A stretch of 26,120 bases of DNA. It comes from a virus. The DNA lies in the IMG/VR virus record IMGVR_UViG_3300000117_000205, positions 1 through 26,120 of that record; one strand, given 5' to 3'. Each line of letters begins with the position of its first letter. Position 1 is the first letter of the stretch. This document shows, piece after piece, positions 18,727-26,120 of this stretch. The notes beneath the pieces are model-generated. The model was not told the origin of the DNA, made no database searches, and saw only the letters and a program-made list of their open reading frames with translations. Both the position numbers and the translations under genes were made by a program.

Positions 18727-19106
18727 TCCAGTTTTTGACACCGATTGCAAACCTAGCTTCAACTTGGTTAGAAGGCCGCGTGGAGACTGCCAAAGCCGAA
18801 ACAGGGGTCAAGGTGGCAAAGGCACAAGCCGAAGCCATTGTGATGCAAAAAAAGGCGACTGGCGAAATTGATTGGGATTTAAAGATGGCAGATGCCAGCG
18901 TATCTAGCTGGAAAGATGAATGGCTGACCTGTCTTTTTAGCATCCCGTTGATACTGGCATTTTGCGGTGATTGGGGCAGAAATGTGGTAGCTGAAGGCTT
19001 TGCCGCGTTGGAAACTATGCCGGAATGGTATCAGGTGACTTTAGGCGTTATCGTTGCAGCCAGCTTTGGCGTGCGGTCAGCCACTAAGTTTTTCGGCAAA
19101 AAGTAA
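18723..19106 (+). CDS. Holin of GTA three-helix type
   Basis: A 127-residue protein starting at the ATG at 18723 in the ATGA overlap. The N-terminal half is an amphipathic, charged helix (LEGRVETAKAETGVKVAKAQAEA); the C-terminal half holds SSWKDEWLTCLFSIPLILAFCGDW and PEWYQVTLGVIVAASFGVRSATKFF. This is the architecture of the gene-transfer-agent holin family (GTA_holin_3TM), where the Trp-Lys-Asp-Glu stretch before the first helix is typical. It would make the membrane lesion that lets the lysozyme out. It is the last gene of the rightward block; a convergent hairpin follows at once. Confidence 0.75.
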   Translation: MIQFLTPIANLASTWLEGRVETAKAETGVKVAKAQAEAIVMQKKATGEIDWDLKMADASVSSWKDEWLTCLFSIPLILAFCGDWGRNVVAEGFAALETMPEWYQVTLGVIVAASFGVRSATKFFGKK

Positions 19107-19125
19107 GGCGGCTATTCCAGCCGCC
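19107..19125 (-). terminator. Convergent hairpin, terminator of the minus-strand operon
   Basis: GGCGGCT (19107-19113) and AGCCGCC (19119-19125) form a perfect 7-bp stem with a 5-base loop. Read on the minus strand it is followed by TTACTTTTTG, a usable U-rich tract. On the plus strand the following bases are not T-rich. The minus-strand gene's stop codon (19112-19114) lies inside the stem. Confidence 0.7.
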
Positions 19126-19318
19126 ATACTCGCCATCCGCAACCGTCATCCATTTTGCGGGTGGTATATTTTAGGCCGCGATAACGCAGCGCGTCACGCA
19201 ACGACATTGCCTGTTCATAAGTTTCGCAAAGCACGCTATCACCAATTTCCATATCATTGATAATTTCAATCTTGCTGCGACCCGCTGGTGGAACCGGCAC
19301 GTTCTTTTCGATTTGCAT
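19112..19318 (-). CDS. Small phage protein, unknown
   Basis: A 68-residue basic protein, last in the minus-strand operon. It contains VPVPPAGRSKIEIINDMEIGDSVLC, then a helix YEQAMSLRDALRYRGLKY and the ending TTRKMDDGCGWRVWRLE. The combination of VPVPP, MxxGDSV, a helix, then TTRK...RVWR recurs in small proteins of many phages and often sits in early operons, but I know no function. Its start overlaps the previous gene by 53 bases, so the ATG at 19318 is the best but not certain start. Confidence 0.65.
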   Translation of the reverse strand: MQIEKNVPVPPAGRSKIEIINDMEIGDSVLCETYEQAMSLRDALRYRGLKYTTRKMDDGCGWRVWRLE

Positions 19319-19487
19319 TTAATATATCCAATCTTTCCCGAAAGCATCCAAGATGCAGTGTTTGTTTGCCGCCATCAACAATCCAATCTGGGTCACTGAG
19401 GCGCAGGGTCTTGTCGCACCATACGCACCGACCCAAAGCATTAGAGGCCGGTGCATATGTTGGTTTCTTTTTAGAACGGGATCGCAT
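19266..19487 (-). CDS. Small zinc-ribbon-like protein
   Basis: A 73-residue protein with a basic N-terminus (MRSRSKKKPTY) and a candidate metal site: C21 and C24 (CVWC) with H45 and C48 (HLGC). The spacing suits a single zinc ribbon or treble-clef-like knuckle. The end is polar and Ser/Gln-rich. Its start overlaps the SSB-like gene by 17 bases, so it is part of the recombination operon. It could bind nucleic acid or a protein partner; no specific family is recognised. Confidence 0.6.
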   Translation of the reverse strand: MRSRSKKKPTYAPASNALGRCVWCDKTLRLSDPDWIVDGGKQTLHLGCFRERLDILNANRKERAGSTSGSQQD

Positions 19488-19722
19488 CTTCTAAAGGCTG
19501 CATTTTTTCGGCGCGTGGCGCGTCCTGTTCTTTTGGTGGCATCGGATCGCTGATCGAAGCTGACATATATTTATTGCCCGCTGCGCTTTCGCGTATCCAC
19601 AACGCAATGCGTTTTTCAACGCCATCGACATTGATCTTGCCAGTGTAGTCCGGCTGGTTTTCGGCGGTCTTGTCGTTGTTCTTAAAGATTGCGCCGCGAT
19701 TGGTGTTATCATATTCAGTCAT
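19471..19722 (-). CDS. SSB-like protein with acidic C-terminal tip
   Basis: An 83-residue protein starting at the ATG at 19722 (AAGGA about ten bases upstream; an ATG four codons earlier has no room for a ribosome binding site). NRGAIFKNN, QPDYTGKINVDGVEKRIALWIRE and NKYMSASISDP follow the pattern of small OB-like phage proteins related to DUF736-type families. The last residues, LEDAIPF, mimic the SSB acidic tip (DDIPF) that docks SSB partners. Set between an ERF annealing gene and downstream small genes, it most likely coats single-stranded DNA for recombination and replication. DNA binding is inferred, not shown. Confidence 0.65.
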   Translation of the reverse strand: MTEYDNTNRGAIFKNNDKTAENQPDYTGKINVDGVEKRIALWIRESAAGNKYMSASISDPMPPKEQDAPRAEKMQPLEDAIPF

Positions 19723-20308
19723 TTTGCACTTCATCCTTCCGTTTAGAAAACATTTCTATTTGATCAACTGGTGCTTTTATGCCGCTGGCACCATACAGCT
19801 TTGTGTAAAGCGCGTTGACATCACGCACACTTTTACACGCATCTAATTTTTCAGCTAAAACATCGTTGGAGGCGGCACCGACTGCCGGAGTGGATGCGAC
19901 AGCCGGTGCCTTTTGGCGAGGCTGCGGACGGGAGGGAACCGCGCCACCACCGCTGGCAAGATTACCATCATCATCATTGCTATTCAATCCGAACATCGTC
20001 AACAAACTTGCCCTGCGGAAATATGTCACGCAGCTAATAAATGACTGGGGCGTGTCTTTTTCTGGGCTGATCTGCAAAAAGCTACTGATCTTTTCGCCAG
20101 TCTCCAAATGCACCACAGTCGTCACCAGCGCACCGTCTTGGAAATATTGCGCGAATGACAGCCCATATTCGAGCAACACATCAAGCGCGGTTAGTACATC
20201 GCCAAGCGTTGAATATTCTGATTTGAACATCGGGTTCTTGCCAGACTTTCCGACAGATGCCGCCTTTCTAACATCGGCTAATGCCGCGTGCAGTTTTAGA
20301 TTTTCCAT
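19715..20308 (-). CDS. ERF-family single-strand annealing protein
   Basis: A 197-residue recombinase. The ERF core spans about residues 1-116: GKNPMFKSEYSTLGDVLTALDVLLEYGLSF, then VTTVVHLETGEKISSFLQI, TPQSFISCVTYFRRASLLTMFGL and the acidic NDDDGN, all typical of the family founded by P22 Erf. A Pro/Ala-rich linker (about 117-145) leads to a small helical C-terminal part. It anneals complementary single strands, feeding on ends resected by the exonuclease encoded just upstream. The start overlaps the exonuclease stop by 13 bases, with AAGGGC before the ATG. Confidence 0.88.
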   Translation of the reverse strand: MENLKLHAALADVRKAASVGKSGKNPMFKSEYSTLGDVLTALDVLLEYGLSFAQYFQDGALVTTVVHLETGEKISSFLQISPEKDTPQSFISCVTYFRRASLLTMFGLNSNDDDGNLASGGGAVPSRPQPRQKAPAVASTPAVGAASNDVLAEKLDACKSVRDVNALYTKLYGASGIKAPVDQIEMFSKRKDEVQND

Positions 20309-21144
20309 AGGTCTTTTGCCCTTTCAAGCCATTCGGTTTTCATTTTCCACTGATACATATGATTCCAATCTGGATCGGTGATTGATGCCAACACCTTTGG
20401 ATCGGTGCTGACGCTCAACAGGTTTTGCCGGATCAATGCTTTTTGCCGCATTTCATTCAAAGCGTACGTTATCCCGTCCGCTTGTAGTTCTTCACAGTTA
20501 TATGCGTTGAAAATGACCGCATCGTGTTCTGCTATGTAAATGATTGATGGCGTGACGCGCAGCGCGTGCCAATAAATAGCCGCTTGGCATATGTGGGCGA
20601 ACTCCGGCTTTTTAGGCAGCGTTGCCTTTGCCCAGCCTTGTGACCCGTCTTTCAACAGCTTGGTCTTGCGCGGGGCTTTGGTTTTCATCTCCGCAAACAT
20701 TGAGCCTTCAACAAGCAAATCGACAAATCCCAAAATCGGCACGTTTACATCATCCAACCAGCATTCAATGCGTTCTTCATCAATTGCGCCGGTGAAGCCG
20801 TTTTCCACACAAATATTCACGCCCTGATGCACCATTGCAGGGATAACTTCACGAAACTTCACACGCAGCACATCGTCTTCATCTGCCGGATGAAAATCAA
20901 AAGCAAGCTGTGCGGCTTCGATGGCTTCATCAATATCTGCGCCGTGGCACACTATAGATTGCACTGCCGTATGCACTGAAGTGCCAATTGCAGCGCGTTC
21001 CCCAACGCCAATTTCTTGCCGCTGTTCTTTTGTCAGATGCAGATAATCAAATATCCACTTAGCCGGTGAGCGTAAAAGCTGACTGGCCGATAAATGGCTA
21101 AACCCTGCGGTTTTCCAAAGTTCACTGATTTCCCGTTTTTTCAT
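20296..21144 (-). CDS. RecB-family PD-(D/E)XK exonuclease
   Basis: A 282-residue nuclease, first in the minus-strand operon. It shows the RecB/Cas4-like motif series: SHLSASQLLRSPAKWIFDYL at the start, GTSVHTAVQ (H58), GFVDLL (D142), FAEMKTK (E152-x-K154) and CQAAIYWHAL (Q187...Y191). Such proteins replace lambda Exo in many phages, resecting double-stranded ends to give single strands for the annealing protein. No four-Cys iron-sulfur cluster is apparent. The ATG is preceded by AGGGTG at a good distance. The operon order exonuclease, ERF, SSB-like protein supports a dedicated recombination module. Confidence 0.85.
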   Translation of the reverse strand: MKKREISELWKTAGFSHLSASQLLRSPAKWIFDYLHLTKEQRQEIGVGERAAIGTSVHTAVQSIVCHGADIDEAIEAAQLAFDFHPADEDDVLRVKFREVIPAMVHQGVNICVENGFTGAIDEERIECWLDDVNVPILGFVDLLVEGSMFAEMKTKAPRKTKLLKDGSQGWAKATLPKKPEFAHICQAAIYWHALRVTPSIIYIAEHDAVIFNAYNCEELQADGITYALNEMRQKALIRQNLLSVSTDPKVLASITDPDWNHMYQWKMKTEWLERAKDLWKI

Positions 21145-21249
21145 AGCAACACCCTAGCGCAGATCGTTCCCAAAATGCAACAGGTATTTTTTCACTTTAC
21201 AGATATGATCGTTTTGGGCAAGGATAGGGCAACTGAAACGGGGGCAGCT
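21145..21249. promoter_or_regulatory. Divergent control region between recombination and early operons
   Basis: This 105-bp gap is the only divergent junction, so both transcription units probably start here. An inverted repeat CCCAAAA (21169-21175) / TTTTGGG (21212-21218) frames it with a 36-base spacer, and GATCGTT occurs beside both arms. For the minus strand, TTGCCC (complement of 21216-21221) and TAAAGT (complement of 21194-21199) with 16 bp between them could be -35 and -10. On the plus strand TATGAT (21204-21209) could be a -10 but has no good -35. Promoter calls are weak; the repeat arms may be operator half-sites. Confidence 0.45.
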
Positions 21250-21678
21250 ATGTCTGGAAGCAAATCAAGAAACAAAGGTCGCGGCTATGAATATGAGATA
21301 GCCAAAGAACTTTTCGACCATCTTGGGTTGAATTTTGTGCGGGAACTGGATCAAACGCGACAAGCGCATCTTGGCGATTTGGTGACGACTGATTGTGATT
21401 TTCCTTTTGTGATTGAATGCAAAAGATACAAATCCGGCGTTTCTGGTGACTGGTGGTCACAAGTTTGCACAGCCGCTGCGGTTGCTGAAAAACTACCGGT
21501 GCTGTTTTACCGTCTTGATAGAATGAAAACCCGCGTGCGCTTGCCAGTGGCGGCTATCGTGGGGCTTGCTGGCTGGTCGCCTAATGAAGATGCGGCTGAA
21601 CAGTACGATTGGCGATATGCCGTTGAAACTGATCTGGACACGGCAATGATGATAATTCGGGAGCACATTAATGGATGA
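21250..21678 (+). CDS. PD-(D/E)XK endonuclease, possible junction resolvase
   Basis: A 142-residue nuclease starting at the ATG at 21250; upstream codons of the open frame run across the divergent control region and are not credible. SRNKGRGYEYEIAKELFDHLG gives E14 or E16, HLGDLV gives D43, and FVIECKRYKSG gives E56-x-K58, a clean E...D...ExK core. GDWWSQVCTAA and PVLFYRLDR follow, as in small phage resolvase-like proteins. It may cut branched DNA before packaging, or act as a general endonuclease. It opens the rightward early operon and overlaps the next gene by 8 bases. Confidence 0.75.
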   Translation: MSGSKSRNKGRGYEYEIAKELFDHLGLNFVRELDQTRQAHLGDLVTTDCDFPFVIECKRYKSGVSGDWWSQVCTAAAVAEKLPVLFYRLDRMKTRVRLPVAAIVGLAGWSPNEDAAEQYDWRYAVETDLDTAMMIIREHING

Positions 21679-21931
21679 CGATATCGGCAAAAAGACGGTT
21701 GGAGACCGCGAATATACGATGGTTTCAAGCGAAACGTGGATTGATGTGAAAGATTTGACCGTCAACATTGTCAAAGGCAGAACCGGCGTAAAGGTCTGGA
21801 TTTACGAACGCAACACCGGCAATCCCGATCCATTAGCTATCTGCGAAGCCGATTATGTGCGGATCACAAATAAGCGATCGAATATTATACCGTTTTTTCC
21901 TAAGGGGCATTTCAATGATCCAAAGCGGTGA
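21671..21931 (+). CDS. Small early protein, unknown
   Basis: An 86-residue protein, beta-rich by pattern: SETWIDVKDLTVNIVKGRTGVKVWIYERNTGNPDPLAICEAD, ending in PFFPKGHFNDPKR. The charge alternation suggests a small barrel. It overlaps the nuclease stop by 8 bases and the next gene by 17, so it is co-translated in the early operon. No family is recognised. Confidence 0.6.
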   Translation: MDDDIGKKTVGDREYTMVSSETWIDVKDLTVNIVKGRTGVKVWIYERNTGNPDPLAICEADYVRITNKRSNIIPFFPKGHFNDPKR

Positions 21932-22100
21932 TGGTACATTTGCTGAACTTTACGAACAAGGCAGATGCCCGAAGTGTCGAAGCTATATGTCAAAGGAAAA
22001 CGACATATGGGCTTGTCCGGTCTGCAAAATGACCCATAAAGGAGTGGATGAAGATGGAAACCGAACACAATCTGAAAATGGAAATGCTGACGATTGCTGA
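21915..22100 (+). CDS. Small zinc-ribbon protein
   Basis: A 61-residue protein from the ATG at 21915, supported by AAGGGG about nine bases upstream. GRCPKCRSYMSKENDIWACPVCKMTH carries two CPxC knuckles 17 residues apart, the classic four-Cys zinc ribbon. The C-terminal part is acidic and polar and probably flexible. Phage zinc ribbons of this size often modulate transcription or bind host proteins, but the target is unknown. It overlaps the next gene by 47 bases. Confidence 0.65.
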   Translation: MIQSGDGTFAELYEQGRCPKCRSYMSKENDIWACPVCKMTHKGVDEDGNRTQSENGNADDC

Positions 22101-22476
22101 AATCGGCACAGCGTGGAAATGCGAACCGGTCAAATTGCCGCAGTATTGTCAGCTAGACTTTGCATTGACGCGGCAAGGCAAGATTGAAGCATTTGCTGAA
22201 GTCAAGTGCAGGACATTTCCGCGCAACAGATATAAAACGTCACTGATCCACCTTCATAAAATGATGTATGCGCGGCAAGTGGCTTTCGAGACTGGCATAC
22301 CGACTTTTTTGATAGTGCGCTGGACTGACTGGATAGGGGCTTGCAGCTTCAAGGTGGATTTTGCCACAACAATCGGGGGCAGACGGGATCGCGGGATTGA
22401 ACGCGATTATGGGCTAATGGCAGAGGTTCCAATAAGCGAATTTCATATGGTAAGGGAATTAAATGAAACGATCTGA
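22054..22476 (+). CDS. PD-(D/E)XK nuclease-like protein
   Basis: A 140-residue protein. The core is YCQLDFALTRQGKIEAFAEVKCRT, with D35 and E49-x-K51, followed by the helix SLIHLHKMMYARQVAFETG and the strand PTFLIVRWTDW. This is the compact nuclease pattern seen in small phage endonucleases. AAAGGAG precedes two in-frame ATGs, at 22048 (3 bases away) and 22054 (9 bases); the second has better spacing. It is the third such nuclease in the window outside the RecB-like exonuclease. The role could be host DNA degradation, recombination or packaging. Confidence 0.65.
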   Translation: METEHNLKMEMLTIAEIGTAWKCEPVKLPQYCQLDFALTRQGKIEAFAEVKCRTFPRNRYKTSLIHLHKMMYARQVAFETGIPTFLIVRWTDWIGACSFKVDFATTIGGRRDRGIERDYGLMAEVPISEFHMVRELNETI

Positions 22477-22732
22477 AGCACTGGAAAAAGTGCAGCTAAT
22501 ATTAAACGAACGCGGTGCGTCTTATGGCGATCTGCGGAAAAACTGGACGCAAACTAGCCAGATGATGAGTATGGTGGTCGGCAAAGATGTAACGCCGGAG
22601 CAATTTGGCGCGATGATGATTGCTATGAAGCTGTCAAGGCTTGCCAATAGCGAATGCAGCCACGCCGACAGCCTGTTAGACATTATCGGGTATGCGGCTT
22701 TAACTTTGGAGATTTTGCACGATGAGCATTAA
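22463..22732 (+). CDS. Small all-alpha phage protein (DUF6378-like)
   Basis: An 89-residue helical protein. ALEKVQLILNERGASYGDLRKNW, then VTPEQFGAMMIAMKLSRLANSE and HADSLLDIIGYAALTLEIL fit a common phage family labelled DUF6378, whose RxxxYGD, KxxR and DSxxDIxGYA pattern hints at a MazG-like helical fold. MazG-type enzymes hydrolyse nucleotides, but the catalytic set is not clear here, so activity is not claimed. AAGGGA gives a good ribosome binding site. It overlaps the genes on both sides. Confidence 0.65.
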   Translation: MKRSEALEKVQLILNERGASYGDLRKNWTQTSQMMSMVVGKDVTPEQFGAMMIAMKLSRLANSECSHADSLLDIIGYAALTLEILHDEH

Positions 22733-23465
22733 AGCAGTATCTTGGGCATTGGAACAATCGCTTGGCGATAGCACTGCAAAGCTGGTTCTGCTCGGCATCT
22801 GTGACCGTTATAACGATGATTATAATGTGGCGTGGCCTTCAATGAAATGGCTATCGATTGCGGCTGATTGCAGCGAAAGAACTGTGATCCGCAAGGTGCA
22901 AAAGCTTGAGGAAATGGGGCTGTTGTCGATAGAAAAGCGACCAAACAAGACTAACCGATATCAAGTAACACCATTGGAGACCAACCATAGTGACAACCTG
23001 TCACCTAGTGACACAGCTATGTCACCTCATTATGACAACCATATGTCACACGAACTATATAGAACAATAAATAATAAAAAGGGGAAAACCAAAGTTGTTG
23101 ATTGGGAACCTAATGAGGCTGATCGCCAATTTGCTCAAAGCAAAGGTTTGGATGCAGCCGAAGTGCTAGAGGCAATCCGCTTGTGGGATAAGCAGAACGG
23201 CAACAAAGCCGCCTACGTTGATCTGACAGCCTTTTGGCAGAACTGGTGCATACGAGATGCCAAAAAGAAGCCAAAGCGCGTCACAGGCCATTCTAGGCCA
23301 TCTAGCGGCAATTATAACAATCAGTCTAATGACTGGACACCACCGCAGCGAAAGATGGTCACGCTGGATCAGTGGCAAAGGCTGACTGACGGAATGCGTA
23401 CCTATTACAAGCAAAACCGGCCAGATGTGATCGCCGAACTAAAAAAAGTTGGTGCGGATGTGTAA
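22722..23465 (+). CDS. Replication initiator, lambda O-like
   Basis: A 247-residue protein in three parts. Residues 1-83 are a winged helix-turn-helix of the replisome-organiser type (GDSTAKLVLLGICDRYND, WPSMKWLSIAADCSERTVIRKVQKLEEMGLL, NRYQVTP). Residues 84-125 are a polar linker whose DNA holds an inverted-repeat array. Residues 127-180 (WEPNEADRQFAQSKGLDAAEVLEAIRLW, AYVDLTAFWQNWCIRD) resemble DnaT/O-type C-terminal domains that contact the helicase loader. It likely binds the repeats within its own gene and recruits host DnaB. No phage DnaC, P or helicase gene is seen, so host functions are needed. The ATG overlaps the previous gene by 11 bases. Confidence 0.78.
   Translation: MSIKAVSWALEQSLGDSTAKLVLLGICDRYNDDYNVAWPSMKWLSIAADCSERTVIRKVQKLEEMGLLSIEKRPNKTNRYQVTPLETNHSDNLSPSDTAMSPHYDNHMSHELYRTINNKKGKTKVVDWEPNEADRQFAQSKGLDAAEVLEAIRLWDKQNGNKAAYVDLTAFWQNWCIRDAKKKPKRVTGHSRPSSGNYNNQSNDWTPPQRKMVTLDQWQRLTDGMRTYYKQNRPDVIAELKKVGADV
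22990..23080 (+). other. Putative replication origin inside the initiator gene
   Basis: Six half-sites alternate in orientation within 60 bp: GTGACA (22990), TGTCAC (22999), GTGACA (23008), TGTCAC (23020), TGACA (23033) and TGTCAC (23044). They form three inverted repeats with spacers of 3, 6 and 6 bases. At once to the right comes an AT-rich stretch (23054-23080, only three G/C by eye), a candidate unwinding element. Lambda has the same order: palindromic iterons then AT-rich DNA in the middle of gene O. The encoded peptide is a low-complexity linker, so the DNA signal rather than the protein is probably under selection. Confidence 0.75.
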
Positions 23466-23542
23466 AAAGATGTAAATAGGTGTTGACAGTGGGTTGGAAA
23501 AGGCGCAAGGTAAGTCATCAACAAGGAAACGGGAGTTCCAAA

Positions 23543-23701
23543 ATGATCAACACATATTACAAAAATCAAATTGTTCAAGTTCTGCCAATCAAAAGCCAAT
23601 CTAATCCAGATCATATTCTTGTGCAGTTTGAAAATGGCGATAAAAAATGGGTTTGGATTGACGATGTTGATTTGGTTCAAACCTTAAGGGCGGTGGCATA
23701 A
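23543..23701 (+). CDS. Small protein, unknown
   Basis: A 52-residue protein from the ATG at 23543, with GGGAG about seven bases upstream. It reads NTYYKNQIVQVLPIKSQSNPD then HILVQFENGDKKWVWIDDVDL, suggesting a small beta barrel of SH3-like size (HILVQFENGDKKWV is reminiscent of KOW/Tudor-type strands). No specific family is recognised. It follows a 77-bp gap after the initiator, and its stop overlaps the lipoprotein start by one base. Confidence 0.6.
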   Translation: MINTYYKNQIVQVLPIKSQSNPDHILVQFENGDKKWVWIDDVDLVQTLRAVA

Positions 23702-23922
23702 TGCCCCGCCTTTTCGTCATAGCGGTATTGGTGGCCGGTTGTAGTTATACGCCGGTCGCTGATCTGCGGGTGTCCGGGGATAAAGCGCAGCTATATCAGC
23801 GTGACCTAACTGAGTGCCGCCAGCTAGTCAAAGAAGCGTTGTCGCCTTTGCAGTTTGGTGCGGAAATTAAATGGCTTAATGAGTGCTTGCGGGGACGTGG
23901 GCATAGCGTGTTGGGGGTCTGA
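23701..23922 (+). CDS. Small lipoprotein
   Basis: A 73-residue protein with a signal peptide and lipobox: PRLFVIAVLVAGC, with LVAGC at residues 10-14, so the mature protein should begin at C14 and be lipidated. The mature part (CSYTPVADLRVSGDKAQLYQ, RDLTECRQLV, NECLRGRGHSVLGV) has two more Cys, which may pair, and the RGRGxxVL ending common in small phage and bacterial lipoproteins. It could be an outer-membrane lipoprotein in superinfection exclusion or lysis (Rz1-like), but the sequence does not decide. The start overlaps the previous stop (TAATG). Confidence 0.7.
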   Translation: MPRLFVIAVLVAGCSYTPVADLRVSGDKAQLYQRDLTECRQLVKEALSPLQFGAEIKWLNECLRGRGHSVLGV

Positions 23923-23923
23923 T

Positions 23924-24040
23924 ATGGTTAAGGATACGATTGGAATGCTGGTATTGACTGCGCTGGTCATTACGTTTGGCACTAATGCCATCACGCAGGA
24001 TTACAACATCTGGGCATTGATGGTGCGGTTTGGGGGGTAA
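23924..24040 (+). CDS. Tiny membrane protein, unknown
   Basis: A 38-residue frame starting at the ATG at 23924, with GGGGG about nine bases upstream. VKDTIGMLVLTALVITFGTNAITQDY has one membrane-spanning helix, followed by NIWALMVRFGG. It directly follows the lipoprotein gene and precedes the HNH gene by 2 bases. Too short to classify; it may partner the lipoprotein at the envelope. Confidence 0.5.
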   Translation: MVKDTIGMLVLTALVITFGTNAITQDYNIWALMVRFGG

Positions 24041-24042
24041 TT

Positions 24043-24675
24043 ATGGAAATTATTAGCAGAAAACAAGCATTGGCTGATGGCCTACAAAGATATTTCACTG
24101 GCAAAGAATGCCCACATAATCATTTGTGCGAAAGATATACATCAAATCACAAATGCGTAATTTGTTCTTCAGAACACGCAAAATTGCCCCAAAGCAAAAA
24201 ACAAATGCGTCAAAGATATAGAAAGTTTAAAAAAGAAATTTGGCAAAGAGCAAAGTTTCGTATGGAACAAAACCCACAATACAAAGAAGCGCGGCTTCTT
24301 TATATGAGACAATGGTATCGCGAAAATCGTGAATATTGTTATGCAAAGTCAAGAGAATACATTGCAGCAAACCCTGAAAAAAACACAAGATACAAAAATA
24401 AATGGGCAAAAAATAACAAAGGATATGTGGCAGCAAATTGGAAAAAAAGAGACAAAGCAATAAGAAAAGCCACACCAAAATGGTGCGACATAAATGCAAT
24501 TGCAAAAGTTTATGAAAAAAGAATTTTGTTAGACGAAAAAACCGGCATTCAACATCACGTTGATCATATTGTGCCTTTGCGCGGCAAAAACATTTGTGGG
24601 TTGCACGTCCCTTGGAACTTGCAAATCATAACCGCAGATGAAAACTTGCGTAAAGGCAACAGCTTTAATGGCTGA
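24043..24675 (+). CDS. Free-standing HNH endonuclease
   Basis: A 210-residue nuclease. The N-terminal SRKQALADGLQRYFTGKECPHNHLCERYTSNHKCVIC is a Cys/His zinc ribbon often fused to phage HNH domains. A long, very basic, Lys/Tyr/Asn-rich middle follows (about 48-160). The HNH core lies at the C-terminus: HHVDHIVPL (H172, D174, H175), then PWNLQII (N192) and ADENLRKGN (N201). It is clearly more AT-rich than its neighbours by eye (runs of A and many AAA/AAT codons), which suggests arrival from elsewhere, as for homing-type endonucleases. It overlaps the next gene by 8 bases. Confidence 0.85.
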   Translation: MEIISRKQALADGLQRYFTGKECPHNHLCERYTSNHKCVICSSEHAKLPQSKKQMRQRYRKFKKEIWQRAKFRMEQNPQYKEARLLYMRQWYRENREYCYAKSREYIAANPEKNTRYKNKWAKNNKGYVAANWKKRDKAIRKATPKWCDINAIAKVYEKRILLDEKTGIQHHVDHIVPLRGKNICGLHVPWNLQIITADENLRKGNSFNG

Positions 24676-24829
24676 GGAAATTGAATGCCCTGAGTGTCAG
24701 GGCTATGGCTGGCTTGTTTATTGGGTGGGCAAGCGTGGAGCCAATGACCCTTGTGGCAGCGAAGTGCAAGATGATTGCGATGTATGTCACGGGTCGGGGA
24801 TGATAGAGAACCCAAATTGGAGTGGATAA
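24668..24829 (+). CDS. DnaJ-type zinc-finger mini-protein
   Basis: A 53-residue protein from the ATG at 24668, inside the HNH stop region. CPECQGYG and CDVCHGSG are two CxxCxGxG motifs, the zinc-binding repeat of DnaJ, separated by 29 residues (GWLVYWVGKRG and NDPCGSEVQDD). One pair can bind one zinc. Phages encode many such minis; proposed roles are in chaperone mimicry or nucleic-acid binding, with none proven here. The next gene begins immediately after the stop. Confidence 0.65.
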   Translation: MAEEIECPECQGYGWLVYWVGKRGANDPCGSEVQDDCDVCHGSGMIENPNWSG

Positions 24830-25192
24830 ATGGAAAAACGTATAGATCAATCAATGCGCTATAAAATCACAAAGATGTTGCGTGATAGGCTAAACAATGA
24901 CCCAGATATGCGGGAAATGCTTTATAACATATCCTTAGAATTATGGGATCAAATGATCGATCATTATGGTGATGATATGGAGCAAACTAACGGCATATAT
25001 GATGAAGAAGGTCAATTTGTTCCACATATTGCTGGCGTTACTGTTTGGGATGAAATGAAAGGTGAGTTTTTATATGTGCCTTTAACAACCACAGAGTTTG
25101 ACCATCTTGAACATATGAATGATGTGCTTGGCGATACAAAGGTAATGCTGGCTATGTATCACGAAATCCGCGATGGCAAGGTTTCTGCATAA
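24830..25192 (+). CDS. Hypothetical acidic protein
   Basis: A 120-residue acidic protein starting directly after the previous stop. A helical front (YKITKMLRDRLNNDPDMREMLYNISLELWDQMIDHYGDD) is followed by a strand-rich part (HIAGVTVWDEMKGEFLYVPLTTTEF) and a final helix (LEHMNDVLGDTKVMLAMYHEI). I recognise no family. It is AT-rich by eye like the HNH gene before it. It is the last gene before a strong terminator, so it ends the early transcript. Confidence 0.6.
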   Translation: MEKRIDQSMRYKITKMLRDRLNNDPDMREMLYNISLELWDQMIDHYGDDMEQTNGIYDEEGQFVPHIAGVTVWDEMKGEFLYVPLTTTEFDHLEHMNDVLGDTKVMLAMYHEIRDGKVSA

Positions 25193-25212
25193 CGTCAACA
25201 GCAAGGGGAAGC

Positions 25213-25241
25213 AAAGGGCGGCATTGACCGCCTTTTGTTTT
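25213..25241 (+). terminator. Strong intrinsic terminator ending the early operon
   Basis: AAAGGGCGG (25213-25221) pairs with CCGCCTTTT (25228-25236), nine pairs with one G-U, loop CATTGA, then TTTTGTTTT (25233-25241). This is the clearest intrinsic terminator in the window. It separates early genes from the two genes next to cos. Confidence 0.88.
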
Positions 25242-25258
25242 GCGGATAACCTAGCGCG

Positions 25259-25447
25259 ATGGATGACTGTTGCTTGTTTTTTGAGAATGAAGTCGATTGC
25301 GGCATTTGCGGCGCGCCGACTTATGCTATTGTGGAAGCTAATAGCGGCACGATCAACTGCACTGAGTGCGATGGCATTATTTTTGACGCACGCGATTGCC
25401 ACGGTACGGTCGTAATATTGGAATTAGATAGCGAGACACAACACTGA
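25259..25447 (+). CDS. Small zinc-ribbon protein near cos
   Basis: A 62-residue acidic protein after the terminator. DCGICGAPTYAIVEA and INCTECDGIIFDA supply C14/C17-type and CxxC knuckles about 17 residues apart, a four-Cys zinc ribbon; a leading CC pair may add to it. Its stop overlaps the next start (TGATG). By position it may be the first gene of the late transcript that runs across cos into the terminase genes, perhaps as a regulator. The function is not recognised. Confidence 0.55.
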   Translation: MDDCCLFFENEVDCGICGAPTYAIVEANSGTINCTECDGIIFDARDCHGTVVILELDSETQH

Positions 25448-26082
25448 TGCAGATCAACGTCAAAAGCAATATCAGCGCGTTTGCAAAGGCAATGGATGCG
25501 TTTGGCAAGAACCAGATACCATTTGCCACGGCTAACGCATTGACCAGCACAGCGTTTGATGTACGCAAGCAAATCGTTGACGACACCTATCCAAACAGCT
25601 TCACAGTACGCAACAAGCGGTTTGCAAGCACAATGTTCCGCGTTGAGCCAGCCAATAAGCGCAACCTAACAGCGCGTGTCTACGACCGGCTGGGGCGTGA
25701 CTATATGACAACGCAAGCCGAAGGCGGGTTCAAACGACCACGCGGCAGCAACATTGCAATCCCGTCAAGGCAAATCAAACGCACAGCATCGGGCAAGGTG
25801 CCAAAGGCAAAGCAACCGCGTAACGTGCTGGGCGGTCGAGGGTACAAGGCAACGCTGCAAAGCGGGCAAGAAGTTATTGCAGAACAGACGGGGCGGGGGG
25901 CAGCGCGTAAACAGCGCGTGTTGTACCTGTTAGAGAAGATTGCACGCATTCCAAAGCGGTTTCCGTTCTATGAAGATGCAAACAAAACGGCTGGCAGGAT
26001 GTTTGACCGAAATTTCAAGAAAAGCTTCGCGTTTGCCAAGCAGACAGCGCGGCGCAAAGCAAAAGGTACTTTGGGAACGTGA
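25447..26082 (+). CDS. Minor tail protein Z-like (gpZ), displaced
   Basis: A 211-residue very basic protein ending 8 bases before the right cos. The layout follows lambda gpZ: an N-terminal helix region with QIPFATANALTSTAFDVRKQ (lambda: AVPGAAAMAINRVASSAIS), a basic middle with VRNKRFASTMFRVEPANKRNLTARVY, then VLYLLEKIARIPKRFPFYEDANKTAGRMFDRNFKKS, comparable to RYPIDVVKIPMAVPLTTAFKQNIER. In lambda Z lies between FII and U and completes the head-proximal tail end. Here that slot is empty and this gene lies at the other end of the linear map, yet next to the terminase genes once cos is joined. The match is by eye only. Confidence 0.5.
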   Translation: MQINVKSNISAFAKAMDAFGKNQIPFATANALTSTAFDVRKQIVDDTYPNSFTVRNKRFASTMFRVEPANKRNLTARVYDRLGRDYMTTQAEGGFKRPRGSNIAIPSRQIKRTASGKVPKAKQPRNVLGGRGYKATLQSGQEVIAEQTGRGAARKQRVLYLLEKIARIPKRFPFYEDANKTAGRMFDRNFKKSFAFAKQTARRKAKGTLGT

Positions 26083-26090
26083 CTATCGGG

Positions 26091-26103
26091 GGTAACGCAA
26101 CAC
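26091..26103 (+). other. Right cohesive end (cos), filled-in 13-base overhang
   Basis: The second copy of GGTAACGCAACAC, lying directly against the right adapter. Together with the copy at 18-30 it defines the 13-base 5' overhang. The left arm of the symmetric site, TCGGGG, spans 26086-26091. Only 8 bases separate the last gene from the cut. Confidence 0.85.
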
Positions 26104-26120
26104 AGATCGGAAGAGCGTCG
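26104..26120 (-). other. Residual sequencing adapter, right end
   Basis: AGATCGGAAGAGCGTCG is the exact reverse complement of the first 17 bases of the window. It is library-derived and should be trimmed before deposition or homology searches. Confidence 0.96.

Follow-up and report, generated by a model that had tools for sequence, protein, structure and literature searches.

We analyzed a 26,120-base virus record (hereafter the window), whose gene content includes terminase, lysozyme, tail, Erf-type recombination, and O-like initiator genes. Comparison with related genes indicates that this phage very probably keeps the candidate docking sites of its replication starter inside the starter's own gene. 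With high confidence, we read the inverted-repeat array in the linker-coding part of that gene as the putative initiator-binding iterons of a phage replication origin, arranged in the style of lambda and RepA_N replicons, with the DNA-binding domain and its sites apparently exchanged as one cassette.

The initiator gene and its linker array

The initiator gene (22722-23465, plus strand) encodes a 247-aa HTH_36 (PF13730) O-like replication initiation protein. The Pfam match to HTH_36 (E=2e-10) and the PHROG matches to phrog_1032 (replication initiation protein, E=4e-20) and phrog_391 (replication initiation O-like, E=2e-16) bear out the O-like designation given in the first-pass annotation of this DNA. 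Codons 1-82 (22722-22967, plus strand) encode the winged-helix DNA-binding domain, modeled by AlphaFold2 with a pLDDT of 78-92 over residues 1-80 and with helices at residues 3-11, 17-28, 41-48, and 52-64. The top matches in the structure search were wHTH folds, and the structural matches include the RepA_N structures 4pql and 4pt7 and the Rep-DNA complex 5kbj. The helix at residues 52-64 (ERTVIRKVQKLEE; 22875-22913, plus strand) is the predicted recognition helix according to DSSP, covariation, and an hhalign comparison with CRP; it contains R53 (22878-22880) and R57 (22890-22892).

The C-terminal module (23079-23462, plus strand), which is common to all cassette types described below and ends in the invariant tail YKQNRPDVIAELKK, is predicted to be helical and presumed to contact the helicase or its loader. 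A fold search with this module gave no significant match and no known fold was recognised; the C-terminal domain of DnaT, at rank 3 with an E-value of 4.1, was not usable. Sequence searches against solved structures returned only generic wHTH regulators or chance matches. No gpP-type helicase loader was recognised among the neighbouring ORFs scanned. A scan of genome contigs returned distant relatives only.

The array lies where the first-pass annotation had placed it, between the predicted winged-helix domain and the helical C-terminal domain, in a linker whose residues 88-119 have a pLDDT below 50 (AlphaFold2) and appear disordered. It spans 22990-23049 and comprises the half-sites GTGACA (22990), TGTCAC (22999), GTGACA (23008), TGTCAC (23020), ATGACA (23032), and TGTCAC (23044). 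The reported strict alternation of six half-sites holds, with five exact GTGACA/TGTCAC copies and a single one carrying one mismatch, the ATGACA at 23032. The reported steps of 9, 9, 12, and 12 bases were likewise reproduced, but the final step is 12 rather than 11, since the degenerate fifth site had been anchored one base off. The most suitable reading of the array is as three hyphenated dyads, spaced centre to centre by 19.5 and 24 bp, whose paired half-sites are separated by 3, 6, and 6 bp: GTGACA-ACC-TGTCAC (22990-23004), which is kept in all type A relatives; GTGACA-CAGCTA-TGTCAC (23008-23025), defined by half-site sequence and conservation; and ATGACA-ACCATA-TGTCAC (23032-23049), in which the first half-site is degenerate here and GTGACA in most relatives. 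The AT-rich DNA said to follow the array was also recovered at 23050-23091, where the A+T content reaches 74% compared to 53% for the gene, making this stretch a candidate DNA-unwinding element.

Single GTGACA copies are no rarity here: the window has 17, against 11.3 expected. When the whole record was scanned in 66-nt segments for a repeated 6-mer, the top scores were those of the array segments, and a search with the spaced dyad pattern returned no further sites. Significance was assessed with a null model in which synonymous codons were permuted within the gene, so that the protein and the codon usage were held fixed. The linker repeat score exceeded the shuffles with p=0.0036 for gene nucleotides 210-420 and p=0.0002 for the core, and the five GTGACA/TGTCAC copies, compared to a null mean of 0.64, were matched in none of 20,000 shuffles. 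The same test gave unremarkable results for the regions coding for the wHTH and the C-terminal domain, and the annotated iterons of lambda O, used as a positive control, scored p=0.0005.

A protein search with the initiator yielded 39 viral loci, and the array spacing is unchanged in those of type A. As anticipated by the first-pass annotation, the 19 distinct type A genes keep the half-sites but vary in their linker residues. Variable columns number 3 of 36 in the half-sites compared to 14 of 24 in the spacers, and mean column entropy is 0.04 in half-sites, 0.71 in spacers, and 0.72 at wHTH third positions (p=3.6e-6). Third codon positions inside the half-sites are invariant (entropy 0.00), and serine to glycine and similar swaps occur around the half-sites with the DNA half-site unchanged. 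These data also bear on the proposal that selection acts at the protein level on a repetitive, disordered linker peptide and that the DNA repeats arise only as its consequence. The type A linker peptide indeed consists of SPSDxxxSP repeats, and every step of the array is a multiple of three, in line with the first-pass view of an array fitted to the reading frame. That view applies to the window's own gene but fails in relatives: the sister cassette has steps of 17, 11, and 11, and in 62 of 80 related arrays the copies on one strand fall into different frames. Together with the loss of the array in synonymous shuffles, the invariant third positions, and the occurrence of copies on both strands in 55 of the 80 related arrays, these multi-frame copies led us to reject the protein-level explanation, which we regard as extremely improbable.

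Exchange of the DNA-binding domain together with the array

Comparison by blastn with syntenic type B relatives delimited an exchangeable specificity cassette of ~305 bp (22754-23057) that comprises the DNA-binding domain and the array. Matches between the window and type B (78-95% DNA identity) end at 22753, or at 22725 in a few relatives, and restart at 23055-23058 in most; the type B sequence between these flanks has no match to the window. In type B phages sharing the window's C-terminal subtype, the C-terminal module is 89-98% identical (mostly 89-95%), whereas the wHTH is only 40% identical. In place of the GTGACA array, the type B linker contains CCTGCA/TGCAGG repeats whose steps are not divisible by three. 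A search with the C-terminal module alone added types C and D, so that four cassettes (A-D) are found on the same C-terminal module.

Types A and B are each present on both C-terminal subtypes. Mapped onto the C-terminal tree, the type labels require 13 changes, where 4 would suffice, and the well-supported (starred) branches force at least six changes for A and for B; the exact number of exchanges is only rough, because tree support is modest. As judged from these alignments, a swap of the DNA-binding domain brings a changed array with it, and the exchange has recurred. Since the sites lie inside the initiator's own gene, side by side with the binding domain, both would be inherited together and relatives can swap them as one small cassette. 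The co-exchange argues against recognition of the array by another protein, such as a phage repressor or a host factor, as the array changes along with the initiator DNA-binding domain between syntenic neighbours on both sides. Even among unrelated hosts, moreover, the array sequence follows two residues of the recognition helix (see below), and we consider binding by a protein other than the initiator very unlikely.

Recurrence of the array and its covariation with the recognition helix

The wider O-like family was collected by N-terminal profile searches of viral contigs, phage records, and prophages of evenly sampled Pseudomonadota, giving 103 non-redundant representatives at most 75% identical. 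A linker array was detected at p<0.01 against synonymous shuffles in 80 of the 103 genes; the same test elsewhere in the genes was positive for the wHTH region in 4 of 103 and for the C-terminal region in 9 of 91. Repeat spacing peaks at 21-24 bp, with 153 gene-spacings of 20-24 bp compared to 59 expected, and A+T content is raised just downstream of the arrays in 77 related genes. The array sequences differ widely, as exemplified by three copies of TGCGAAGCTACTTCGCA in L207 and by GGCGCAGGAGATGCGCC in L229. The first-pass annotation had named relatives with the same initiator but no repeats as evidence against its reading. None was seen among close relatives, but 16 of the 103 genes in the wider superfamily have no array even at p<0.05, and the intragenic layout is therefore not universal.

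Several individual genomes deserve mention. Salmonella phage SI8 (L044) is a natural exception, its HTH_36 initiator being close to array-bearing ones while no array is detectable. Four related prophages (L122, L125, L127, and L141) carry different numbers of in-frame iteron units of ~21 bp (GTGCA/TGCAC occurs, for example, 10, 8, and 6 times), and the array therefore grows and shrinks. Micromonospora genomes (L184-L192) contain several copies of distant HTH_36-like proteins, in which no clear inverted linker array was seen.

We further regressed array similarity on residue identity at each wHTH column, controlling for overall identity. The best predictors of the array were position 57 (partial r of 0.387) and then position 53 (0.210), compared to a maximum of 0.204 in 200 permutations. 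The two positions, four residues apart, fall within the predicted recognition helix. Position 57 still ranked first in sets thinned to 60% (p=0.01) and 50% identity, although in the latter the top covariation barely exceeds the permutation limit (p=0.038). Arrays of the GTGAC/TGACA kind were found in 25 of 33 genes with both R53 and R57 compared to 8 of 70 other genes, and in none of 25 genes with R53 but without R57. A strict one-residue code was rejected, as R57 without R53 is accompanied by GTGAC/TGACA in only 5 of 20 genes. In a held-out check on 16 later-fetched genes, the R53+R57 rule gave 3 of 4 compared to 1 of 12 (p=0.027). The R53+R57 association was weaker when N-terminal domains were thinned to 40% identity (p=0.016, n=33). 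With 8 of the 33 R53+R57 genes lacking such arrays, the two-residue rule is a tendency and not a code. Across the family, residues 53 and 57 nevertheless appear largely to predict the site sequence carried in the gene.

The hhalign comparison aligned CSERTVIR of the initiator with CSRETVGR of CRP (probability 89.5%), pairing position 53 with E181 and position 57 with R185. These are two of the three base-contacting residues of CRP (PMC12531629, PMC11253593) and together read the G4:C4 pair of TGTGA (PMC11253593). The likeness to CRP/FNR proteins concerns the recognition helix and its covarying positions: the initiator has no cAMP domain and a different function, and no homology is claimed beyond the wHTH fold.

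Because the DNA-binding domain and its target stand in one readable stretch, thousands of phage genomes form a ready data set, which may serve to derive winged-helix recognition rules testable by one- or two-residue swaps. We give even chances to the broader proposal that O-like initiators constitute a self-labelled protein-DNA library in which residues 53 and 57 set much of the specificity and swaps of a ~300-bp cassette repeatedly switch origin identity.

Proposed origin function, known precedents, and neighbouring genes

The described features support the intragenic origin proposed in the first-pass annotation. The N-terminal winged helix would dock as a dimer on each of the three hyphenated dyads, which follow one another at intervals of roughly two turns of DNA; the adjoining AT-rich stretch would melt; and the host helicase machinery would be recruited through the C-terminal module and its invariant tail. 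An exchange of the cassette would change origin specificity with the rest of the replicon untouched. We infer binding, dimerisation, melting, helicase recruitment, and replication start at the array from the DNA-level facts, the covariation, and the precedents of lambda, pSK41, and pPR9. GC skew across the window has no sign change or turning point at 23 kb and lends support neither way.

In an alternative scheme, initiator binding would serve chiefly in autoregulation or copy-number control, with the array acting as an intragenic operator or roadblock, and replication would start elsewhere. The wHTH folds are common repressors, and the domain-array covariation, while pointing to cognate binding, is silent on what the binding does. 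However, the array lies ~270 bp into the gene, away from the promoter, and is followed by AT-rich DNA; a search of 19000-26120 turned up no second array of comparable repeats; and origins with this layout operate in lambda and pSK41 (PMC7466680, PMC5703833). We therefore regard self-regulation as unlikely, though less so than the alternatives considered above, and favour the intragenic origin.

The first-pass description of the origin as lambda-like is correct for the architecture but not for homology. As in the lambda ori within gene O, hyphenated-dyad iterons occupy the stretch of the initiator gene that encodes the linker and, by composition, AT-rich DNA adjoins them on the downstream side; the annotated lambda iterons step by 20, 24, and 23 bp, comparable with the dyad centres of the window. 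The window differs from lambda in its initiator family (HTH_36), in its three dyads, whose gaps measure 3 and 6 bp, in having no recognised gene P, and, as the first-pass annotation had noted, in iteron sequence. The initiator has no match to Phage_rep_O, the lambda O family, at E 0.01, and lambda O scored -0.4 bits against the family N-terminal profile, i.e., without detectable similarity. Specificity exchange in lambda-phi80 and lambda-82 hybrids was reportedly described by Furth and Yates in 1978. In lambda O, the N-terminal part binds DNA and the C-terminal part contacts the partner (PMC6022878, PMC7466680).

The RepA_N plasmid pSK41 has its ori centrally in rep, a winged-helix N-terminal domain, an ori-encoded linker, and a host-specific C-terminal domain (PMC5703833), and the layout proposed for the window resembles that of RepA_N replicons. 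The window differs from these plasmids in its C-terminal module, in being a phage, and in the initiator, which has no match to RepA_N (PF06970) at E 0.01. In pPR9, a ~500-bp cassette of domain plus ori with a pfam13730 (HTH_36) domain has replaced the RepA_N domain and ori of pSK41; pPR9 is a functional replicon compatible with pSK41 (PMC5703833). It is a close precedent for exchange of a pfam13730 domain plus origin, whereas the exchange among the window's relatives is recurrent within one phage group. A counter-example to the in-gene origin is the RepA_N initiator of the PLE satellite, which uses iterons in a non-coding region (PMC7145576).

With its simple sequence signature, the intragenic layout offers a way to locate origins in phages and prophages. 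Why phages change origin identity becomes a testable question given the cassette exchange seen here. Ectopic copies of the origin block lambda (PMC4488673). More speculatively, origin switching is perhaps driven by escape from origin decoys, satellites, or incompatible relatives.

A recombination module on the minus strand (19471-21144), opposite in direction to the other early genes, encodes an SSB-like PHROG protein, an Erf-family annealing protein, and a PD-(D/E)XK nuclease. Just upstream of the initiator, 21094-22476 encodes two more putative PD-(D/E)XK endonucleases (PDDEXK_15 and PDDEXK_14). On the other side, an Endonuclease VII-like or HNH-type gene (24043-24675) is missing in most syntenic relatives and present in L007, L024, and L026; blastn matches end near 24036-24054 and restart at 24551-24681, and by this pattern it looks like a mobile endonuclease gene.
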